From contig NZ_JACHMH010000001.1 in NCBI RefSeq assembly GCF_014204915.1, positions 5,171,501 through 5,235,500 on the forward strand: DNA of 64,000 nt, given 5' to 3'. This DNA comes from Crossiella cryophila (GTDB taxonomy: Bacteria > Actinomycetota > Actinomycetes > Mycobacteriales > Pseudonocardiaceae). The notes beneath the pieces were generated by a model, which was given only the letters and a program-made list of their open reading frames with translations, had not been told where the DNA came from and searched no databases. The translations under genes were made by a program, and so were the position numbers. Below are positions 31,301 through 34,300 of this stretch, in pieces; position 1 is the stretch's first letter; every line of letters begins with the position of its first letter.

Positions 31301-34300
31301 ACAGGGTGACCCGCAGCGGGGTTTCCCTGTTCAGATCAAAGGGATAGGCGCCCGCCGCGTCGAGGTCGGGGGTGTTGGTGCGGACGACCTCGAAGGGCAG
31401 TGGGGTGCCGACCGGCAGTACGACCTGGTGCGGGCCTTCGGCGTCCTCGGGGTAGATGGTGCGCAGGGCCTCGTGCCGGTCGACCAGGTCGGTGAGCGCG
31501 CCGTGCAGCGCCGGCACGTCCAGGGGGCCGGTGAGCTGGAGGGCGATCGGGATGGTGTAGCTGCCGCCGCCCTGGAGGCGTTGCAGGAACCACATGCGTT
31601 CCTGGGCGAAGGACAGCGGCACCCGCTCCGGTCGTTCCCTGGCGGTGAGGCCCTGCTGTTGCGGGGCAAGGGAATCCAGTCGCTCGGCGAGTTCGGCCAC
31701 GGTGGGGGCGGCGAAGAAGTCACGCAGGGACAGCTCGACGTCGAACTCCGCGCGCACCCGGTGTGCCAGCCGGATCATCACCATCGAGGTGCCGCCCAGC
31801 TCGAAGAACTCGTCGTCGATGGTGATCGAGTCCAGGCTGAGCACCTCGGCGACCATGGCGCACAACAGTTCCTCGCGCGGGGTGCGTGGGGCCCGGCCGG
31901 TGGAGCGGGAGGCGAAGTAGTCCAACTCGGTCCGCGGCCGCTCACCGAGCACCAGCGCGCGCTCCTGCTCGGAGAACACGGCGGTGACCTGAGTGTCCAC
32001 TGTGGAGGATGCGGACTCGAGCAGCGCGCGCAGCTTCCCGGCCACGGTGGCCAGGGCTTCGGGGCTGAGGACCGCGGTGTCCAGGGTGATGCGGAGCTGC
32101 TCGCCGGGGAAGACCGAGACGGTGAGCGGGTAGTGGGTGTCCTCGGTGTTGGCGGCGACCGCCAGCCGCAGCCCGGCGGTGTCCAGGCGGTCGGGCATCG
32201 GGTAGTTCTCGAAGGCCAGGATGGTGTCGAACAGCTCGGTCTGCCACAGGTCGGCCAGTCGCACGGTGTGCTGTTCGCCAAGGCGGGCCTGCTGTTCCTG
32301 CACCCGCGCGGTCAGCCCGGCCAGGCTCTCGCCCTCGGCCAGCTTGACCCGGACGGGCAGGGTGTTGATGAACAGGCCGATCATCCGGTCCACACCCGGC
32401 AGTTCGGGCGGGCGACCGGCGACGGGTGCGCCGAAGACCACGTCCTCGGCGCCGGTGAGTCCGGCCAGCACCAGGCCCCACAGGGACTGGGCGAGTGCGC
32501 CGAGGGTGAGTCCGGCGGCCCGGGTGGTGGCCAGCAGCGCGGCGGTCTGCTCGGTGGTGAGCAGGATCTCGGTGCTGCGCGGGGTGTTCGGTTCGGCGTC
32601 GGGGGCGAGCACGGTGGGGGAGACCCCGGCCAGCTCGGCCAGCCAGAGCCGGGTCACCTCGGCGCGGTCGCGGTCGGCCAGCCAGGTCAGGAACTCCCGG
32701 TAGGGCGTGCCGACCGGCGGGGTCTCACCGCGGTATAGGGCGAACAGCTCGGCCAGCAGCGGGGGCAGCGACCAGCCGTCCAGGAGCAGGTGGTGGTGGG
32801 TGAAGACCAGCCGGGTGCGATCGGAGCCCAGGCGCAGTGCGGTGAAGCGCAGCAGCGGCGGGCGGCGCAGGTCGAACCCACGAGCCCGGTCCGCGGCCAG
32901 GAACTCGGCCACACCGGCCTCGTCGGTCTGGTGTTCGGCCCAGTGCCCGGTGATCGCGGCGGGCACCACCTGGACCGGGTCGGCGGCACCGCGGGTGTGG
33001 AAACCGGCGCGCAGGTTGGGGTGCCGGGTCAGCAGCCGGTCGACGGCGGTGTGCAGGGCGGTCAGGTCGAGGTCGCCCTGGATGTCGAGCACGAGCTGGG
33101 CCACGTACGGGTCGGCGCCGGTGGTGTGCAGGGAGTGGGTGAGCAGGCCCTGCTGCAAGGGGGCGAGCGGCAGCACGTCGGCCACGTCTCCGGCTGCCCC
33201 GCACAGCTCGTCGAGTTCGGCCTGGCCGATGGCGACCAGGGGTACGTCCGAGGGGGTCAGGCCGCTGCCGGTGTGCCGGGACAGGCCGATCAGGGCAGCA
33301 CGCCAGCGGTGGGCCAGTTCGGCGACCCGGTCGGCGTCGAAGGTGGCACTGGACCAGCGGGCGGTCAGCCGCAGCCCGTCCTCGGCCTCGCGCAGGTAGG
33401 TGTTGATCTCCAGCGGCGGCAGGAACGCGGGGTCGGTGGTGTTGCCCTGCAACGGTGATCCGGCCAGCGGCCAGCCGAGCGCGGCCCCGTCCAGGCGGCC
33501 GAGGTAGTTCAGGCTCACCGCCGGTTCGGGCAGCGCGGCCAGTACCGGCGCGGTTTCCGGGTTGAGCCAGCGCAGCAGGCCGAAGCCCAGGCCCTCGCCG
33601 GGGATGGCGCGCACCGACTCCTTGACCGCACGCAGCACCCGGCCGGCCTCGGCGTCGCCTGAGGCCAGTTCGGTCCAGTTCAGCGGGCCGGGGTCCAGGC
33701 GGACGGGGTGCGCGGTGGTGAACCAGCCGACCGTGGTGGCCAGGCCCGCGCCGAGGCGGCCGTGGCCCTCCAGTTCGACGGTGACCGGGCGGCCGATGGC
33801 GGCGGCGAGTCCGGCCAGCAGCACGTCGTCACCATCCGCCCGGTAGGCGGCGGGCAGGTCGGTGAGCAGGCGGGCGGTGGTGGCGGCGTCCAGTTCGATG
33901 TCCACCGAGCGCAGGCCGTCGCCGGTGCCGAGGTCCAGGGGTTCGGCGTCGAGGAGCTGCTGCCAGTGCGGGAGTTCGGCGCGGACAGCCGGGTCCTCGG
34001 CGCGGGCGGGCAGCGAGTTGGCCCAGGTACGCAGGGAGGTCCCGGGTACGGACAGCCGGGCGGGGCGGTCTGCGCGGATCGCGGTCAGGGCCTCGGCCAG
34101 GTCGGGCAGCAGCACCCGCCAGGACACCCCGTCGACCACCAGGTGGTGCAGGGACAGCAGCAGGGTCCCGCCGGTCAGTTCAGCGCGCAGCACGATGCCC
34201 GCGGCCGGATCCAGGCGATCGGTCAGGCAGTCGCGGGCCTGCACCGAGCCAACCGGGCGGACGGTCAGCCGCTCGCCGTCCAGGCGCAGGCGCAGTGCGT

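Follow-up and report, generated by a model that had tools for sequence, protein, structure and literature searches.

A rotihibin-type lipopeptide cluster in Crossiella cryophila with a second module that lacks an adenylation domain and is very probably loaded in trans

Several nonribosomal peptide synthetases (NRPSs) have been described in which a module without an adenylation (A) domain is accompanied by a stand-alone A-T protein (papers are cited here for the available parts of their text). In Streptomyces scabies, module 2 of the rotihibin synthetase RthA lacks an A domain and should take (allo)-Thr, RthB is a threonine A-T protein, RthC an SDR oxidoreductase and RthD a thioesterase believed to act as a shuttle; deletion of rthB abolished rotihibin, and simple complementation failed to restore production (PMC8552735). 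The product is given as acyl-D-Cit-L-aThr-L-Dab-OH-Asn-..., and the RthA of Lechevalieria aerocolonigenes NRRL B-16140 as a protein of seven modules and 7050 aa with module 2 left blank (PMC8552735). An A-less C-T module and a stand-alone A-T are likewise described for WS9326A (WS19/20/21/22), enduracidin (EndB/EndD/End_25645) and himastatin (HmtL/HmtF/HmtG), with type II thioesterase (TEII) and/or SDR partners and L-allo-Thr as the residue (D-Thr in himastatin); these systems differ in the peptide and in the position of the module, and are likened to our locus by description. For WS9326A, disruption of the A-T proteins Cal22Thr and Cal23Asn, which accompany the A-less module, stopped peptide growth short of residue 5 or 6 (PMC7539972), and for enduracidin, where residue 8 is L-allo-Thr and module 8 has no A domain, deletion of endD abolishes the product (PMC13320435). 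A published proposal derives L-allo-Thr from the SDR and the A-T by β-oxidation and reduction, and the same cassette is carried by globomycin, though every module there has an A domain (PMC9943842). As for the transfer itself, the type II thioesterase LgnA takes Thr in vitro off a stand-alone A-T and delivers it to an additional C-T module, and other clusters that combine LgnA-like genes with additional C-T didomains have been reported (PMC8748450).

Here we analyze a locus of Crossiella cryophila, the genome of which is a single contig of 10.06 Mb (G000). The window, i.e., the whole stretch of DNA that was analyzed, is 64,000 nucleotides long, and we consider it highly probable that it holds a seven-module lipopeptide cluster of the rotihibin type, in which an A-less C-T module 2 is loaded in trans via an A-T protein, an SDR and a TEII. 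Trans loading of this kind has already been published for close relatives. The megasynthase and the domains around its module 2 are as follows:

15543..37400, minus strand: NRPS (RthA-like), 7285 aa, C-A-T-E-C-T-(C-A-T)x5-TE, seven modules with six A domains (Pfam matches and our own HMMs)
33267..34187, minus strand: module 1 epimerization domain, a region scored by Pfam Condensation and assigned to E by our own HMM
31980..33182, minus strand: module 2 condensation domain C2, aa 1407-1807, D-C-L type by position and tree neighbors
31869..31979, minus strand: C2-T2 junction, a C-A-type linker joined to an A-T-type linker at the expected place of the A domain
31677..31868, minus strand: module 2 carrier domain T2, aa 1845-1908, core GGTS
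30333..31625, minus strand: module 3 condensation domain C3 (Pfam match)

The initial annotation had claimed that module 2 is devoid of an A domain, and that a complete D-C-L condensation domain leads, in an unbroken frame, into a post-A-type linker and an intact carrier. All of these points hold. A Pfam scan of the genome gave no AMP-binding match between C2 and C3, and our own HMMs reproduce the Pfam domain order of the NRPS, with module 2 as C-T; the frame is open without interruption across all 7285 aa. The motif of C2 is intact (HHLLLDGWS), as is the GGTS core of T2. The A-T-type linker (12 residues) is indeed present and is preceded by a C-A-type linker (10 residues), both resembling those of modules 3-7, and the junction gives the impression of a cleanly excised A domain. 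Among the 45 condensation matches in the genome, the next domain is A in 31, condensation in 10 and neither within 2.5 kb in 3, and the single match with T next is C2 (the count used all 45 condensation matches and a hand-picked NRPS-region subset of 38/82 A and 38/135 T matches).

A tree of 174 C domains places C2, apart from members of this cluster type, nearest to C domains that open an ORF right after an ORF ending in E, a placement which, together with the position of C2 behind the epimerization domain, indicates that C2 should be of the D-C-L type. The tree neighbors of C3 are C domains preceded by T, so that residue 2 should be L-configured at C-alpha. The codes of the six A domains read DVYETGTVNK (module 1), DVWHEGAIDK (module 3), DLTKVGEVGK (module 4), DMTKIGEVGK (module 5), DAYFWGVTFK (module 6) and TVWHFGKCDK (module 7).

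The order C-A-T-E-C-T-C-A-T..., together with the TE end, is common to four other genomes, two of the same genus (G186 and G185) and two of other genera (G229 and G017), with NRPS identities to the window of 93%, 76%, 55% and 59%, respectively. Since NRPS modules are repetitive and hence collapsible, an A domain could have been lost during assembly, a possibility raised along with the initial annotation; five assemblies whose sequences have diverged all show this A-less module and contradict such a collapse, which we rejected as vanishingly improbable. The carrier T2 is 98% identical to its counterpart in G186 and 89% to that in G185, with rough dN/dS estimates of 0.13 and 0.17 (Nei-Gojobori with Jukes-Cantor, on GC-rich genes), values that fall inside the spans seen for the remaining carriers (0-0.40 and 0.13-0.34, respectively). 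T2 is among the better-conserved domains of the NRPS and, at the level of sequence, shows no sign of decay. Compared with G185, C2 has 63% identity, C1 54% and E1 60%, versus 78-85% for C3-C7; the low value for C2 counts against the main reading. Skipping is conceivable in principle for any module without an A domain, and a skipped or dead module 2 would give a six-residue peptide. This outcome is very improbable in view of the intact HHxxxDG motif and carrier serine, of the dN/dS and identity of T2 in the two congeners, and of the residue assigned to the same module of rotihibin (PMC8552735).

A divergent operon lies beside the megasynthase gene and encodes the candidate loading proteins:

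39689..40645, plus strand: ABC transporter ATPase (RthG-like, DrrA family)
40642..41442, plus strand: ABC-2 permease (RthF-like)
41457..42164, plus strand: type II thioesterase (RthD-like), GHSLG, PF00975, proposed aminoacyl shuttle
42161..42991, plus strand: SDR oxidoreductase (RthC-like), TGAARGLG and YVAAK, proposed to invert C-beta of T-bound Thr
43007..45373, plus strand: stand-alone trans loader (RthB-like), 788 aa, putative relic C - A (DFWSIGMVHK) - T (GGNS)
43013..43690, plus strand: N-terminal extension of the loader, candidate shrunken condensation-domain relic with the HHxxxDG segment missing

We read the A code of the loader, by alignment to motif-anchored positions that we take to be the code positions, as DFWSIGMVHK, which is presumably a Thr-type code. 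The initial annotation had put forward the Thr-type A-T of the divergent operon as the donor in trans, and had left trans loading and skipping as alternatives. The Thr-type code and the pairing of A-less module and A-T across species support this donor, and trans loading is the better-supported alternative, skipping being disfavored by the good conservation of T2. The loss of rotihibin upon deletion of rthB agrees with this reading, and the failed complementation counts against it (PMC8552735). Module 2 is very probably supplied by this separate Thr-loading protein encoded nearby. T2 might instead be charged by the neighboring A1 or A3 of the megasynthase, in which case residue 2 would repeat residue 1 or 3, and trans-iterative A domains do exist, e.g., in capreomycin (PMC12400406); however, across species, A-less modules of this kind come with a Thr-type loader of their own, and charging by A1 or A3 is hardly probable at all.

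In the trans-loading mechanism that we propose, the stand-alone A-T would activate L-threonine and load it onto its own carrier. The product of the SDR gene directly upstream probably oxidizes and re-reduces the β-carbon, yielding L-allo-threonyl-S-T, and the TEII from the same operon would then transfer the aminoacyl group to T2. Finally, C2 (D-C-L) would condense the acyl-D-residue of module 1 with residue 2, and C3 would pass the product on. Because an SDR is present in the operon, residue 2 is probably L-allo-threonine, and the predicted product is an acylated heptapeptide carrying L-allo-Thr as its second residue. We infer the inversion at the β-carbon, the TEII shuttle and the use of module 2 in the host from the literature and from homology.

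The remaining genes that we assign to the cluster lie on the minus strand:

37397..39388, minus strand: fatty acyl-AMP ligase (FAAL) fused to ACP (RthH- and RthK-like), lipoinitiation
15332..15541, minus strand: MbtH-like protein (RthL-like)
14373..15470, minus strand: Fe/alpha-ketoglutarate hydroxylase (RthM-like), ORF overlapping the MbtH gene, start provisional
13150..14376, minus strand: cytochrome P450 (candidate RthO-like), between hydroxylase and transaminase
11871..13547, minus strand: diaminobutyrate-2-oxoglutarate transaminase (RthN-like), start provisional

The cluster matches that of G229 gene by gene, in a comparison from which the hydroxylase row was left out; G229 is taken to be the same genome as L130, Lentzea aerocolonigenes NRRL B-16140, a strain number listed as Lechevalieria in PMC8552735. 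The rth names were assigned by family and by the match to G229, the S. scabies proteins themselves being outside the comparison. On this basis, the window shares with rotihibin an E-containing module 1 followed by an A-less module 2, and has counterparts of RthB (Thr A-T), RthC (SDR), RthD (TEII), RthF/G (ABC, DrrAB-like), RthH (FAAL), RthK (ACP), RthL (MbtH), RthM (hydroxylase) and RthN (Dab transaminase); moreover, some of the published seven-module RthA proteins are Val-type at module 6 (PMC8552735), for which the code in the window is given above. There are also differences: FAAL and ACP are fused in one gene, and the NRPS ends in TE, whereas the five-module RthA ends in a reductase. The P450 gene lies between those of the hydroxylase and the transaminase, whereas rthO is listed between rthA and rthL in the O-form clusters, which have a P450 (PMC8552735). 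Both acyl-CoA dehydrogenase genes, rthI and rthJ, are listed in PMC8552735, L. aerocolonigenes included; of the 33 PF00441 matches in our genome, none falls in the window, and we therefore speak of a rotihibin-type layout rather than of a rotihibin producer. We hold the main reading slightly lower because of these absent dehydrogenases and of the place of the P450, which is not the published one. The layout is hereby extended to a genus beyond the Streptomyces and Lechevalieria of PMC8552735.

A parallel with syringomycin (SyrB1/SyrE) had been drawn in the initial annotation. In that system, too, a Thr A-T charges a module without A domain in trans, by way of a shuttle protein (SyrB1/SyrC/SyrE), but Thr is chlorinated by SyrB2, the shuttle is SyrC and it is the final module that has no A domain (PMC8949500). 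The window has a PF00975 type II thioesterase in place of SyrC, which is set apart by description, and gave no match to the PhyH and tryptophan-halogenase families. SyrB2 presumably belongs with PhyH; a chlorination of the syringomycin type was rejected, as no halogenase-family match was found in the window. Hence the trans loading of Thr stands from this parallel, and syringomycin gives way as closest precedent to RthA/RthB: as far as families and layout indicate, rotihibin is the closest relative, along with WS9326A, enduracidin and himastatin. With a C-T module devoid of A and, next to a stand-alone A-T, a TEII with GHSLG, the locus also has the composition of the TEII-shuttled type (LgnA/WS20). 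Legonmycin (LgnA/LgnB/LgnD) resembles it in the TEII-mediated movement of Thr and differs in that Thr is dehydrated to Dhb, with no inversion step in the account of PMC8748450.

A homologue of the loader N terminus occurs in 24 of the 390 genomes of the family, own included. A profile search of 394 genomes of the class gave matches in 130, most of those listed covering the profile end only, in ordinary multidomain frames; besides the window's own, at least 15 among the matches listed were judged by eye to be of the extension type, and 12 of these 15 places were examined. A scan of named genomes contributed 18 loci, one of them from an Acidobacteriaceae MAG. In all, 53 regions have the extension, or 47 after removal of duplicates (named loci L129, L130, L131, L133, L135 and L138, same as G genomes); also outside the counts are G066, where the extension was not found, and G520, G720 and G728, with extension-type matches on contigs of 4 to 14 kb. 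The 45-sequence sets exclude G478 and L141, in which no in-frame A domain accompanies the extension. The assembly of Streptomyces diastatochromogenes ATCC 21481 splits its loader (L141, positions 9806-14206) across two or more frames.

The results show that the genes for TEII, SDR and trans A-T recur side by side as a single cassette, in many cases accompanied by an A-less module. A TEII gene adjoins the loader in 46 of the 47 distinct regions and an SDR gene in 43, the adjoining SDR matches scoring at least 348 and the 10 other SDR matches in those regions at most 113. An A-less C-T module is found within the examined stretch in 32 of the 47 (36 of 53 with duplicates). In the other 15, no A-less C-T module within one ORF was found, in stretches some of which are cut at 10 kb or at a contig end; in three of these (G212, G216 and G217), an ORF with C only precedes one that begins with T, and five (G092, G119, G146, G445 and G478) are without such a module despite flanks of 24 kb or more in both directions. 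Of the loader codes, 41 of the 45 readable ones are D[FY]W[SN][VI]GMVHK. Other codes occur in three of the four regions without SDR versus one of the 41 with SDR, and this concentration of non-Thr codes supports an SDR acting on threonine.

The cassette also bears on the route from loader to T2. The A domain of the loader could charge T2 directly, bypassing its own carrier and the thioesterase, with TEII serving in editing only, and for capreomycin a trans-acting A domain is reported to charge a foreign carrier (CmnA A1 on CmnI; PMC12400406). Against this, the loader keeps its own carrier, the core of which reads GGNS in 45 of 45 regions, TEII is next to the loader nearly throughout, as counted above, and LgnA transfers between two carriers in vitro (PMC8748450); we therefore regard direct charging as unlikely and favor the TEII shuttle. 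Ordinary carriers of the same regions have mostly GGHS (94/154), and those of the A-less modules vary.

Other cluster types carry the same cassette. In G092 (L061-L064), G119 (L075-L078, the same as L138, Amycolatopsis orientalis DSM 40040) and G146 (L112-L115), it lies near NRPS genes that gave no A-less C-T module in the stretches examined, a situation like that published for globomycin. In L124:1-7948, L125, L127, L128 and L132, it comes with a C-T-E module and then a C-A-T-TE gene, an arrangement that recalls the A-less module with E of himastatin (PMC9943842). G665 (L166-L169) and G673 (L177-L180) have C-A-T-C-A-T, C-A-T-C-A-T-E and C-T-C-A-T-C-A-T-TE genes and a second, plain A-T gene beside the A-T with the putative relic C, in clusters that resemble the WS9326A type.

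According to a 2022 review, the loaders of ramoplanin and enduracidin bear an extension of ~300 aa without substantial homology to known sequences, which is required for trans-complementation in ramoplanin (PMC8949500). A profile of 22 extensions of the window type, compared with a profile of 60 C domains, gave a probability of 93.2 (E 3e-7), with 20 column shuffles at or below 0.3; the A-domain profile reached 5.5 over 14 columns, in an alignment running into the A domain. With 45 extensions, trimmed to exclude the C-A linker, and a set of 90 C domains, the probability rose to 96.4 (E 1.3e-9) over 256 columns and C positions 17-408, while the A, T, TE and E profiles stayed at or below 1.5 and 50 column shuffles at or below 0.3. 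Pieces of the extension compared separately gave 6.0, 8.6 and 14.1, with shuffles at or below 0.4 for any set, and an extension piece without linker gave 85.7 against the C profile.

In the column assignment taken from the 45-sequence profile alignment, 7 of the 45 extensions fall outside the motif pattern. The second His of HHxxxDG, which we take to be the catalytic one, is replaced by Arg in 35 of the 38 readable extensions and is His in one (G657a); in the window extension, most of this stretch is absent and the remainder reads differently. Ordinary C domains of these regions have the exact HHxxxDG in 118 of 174 cases. Scans of single sequences are weaker: the window extension alone gave no Condensation match in Pfam, and 6 of the 22 extensions match Condensation at E <=1 (best 8.9e-4), one member matching DUF6459 slightly better (5.3e-4). 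In a second set of 13 extensions, Condensation is matched by 1 (0.067) and HTH_47 by 4 (best 0.075), so that the claim of a relic C domain rests on the profile comparison. By these features, the loader resembles a C-A-T module whose C domain is reduced in size and dead. It may be, at a little less than an even chance, that the loader is a decayed C-A-T whose dead, shrunken C domain has turned into a docking part guiding the thioesterase or the A-less C-T module, a docking role that we infer. The loaders of ramoplanin, enduracidin and WS9326A are outside our sequence sets, and their homology to the window-type extension is presumed. Our search of the open-licence literature, at the level of listings, found no description of the extension of trans A-T loaders as a relic C domain; such an identity, if it holds, would make it possible to test how a free-standing A-T locates its partner module, with a bearing on NRPS engineering.

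The right flank of the window (47801-62154) encodes a luciferase-like monooxygenase, a ROK regulator and ABC transport genes with an NMT1-like protein, as well as a C-methyltransferase and a methionine-synthase-like protein, genes that apparently lie outside the lipopeptide cluster.
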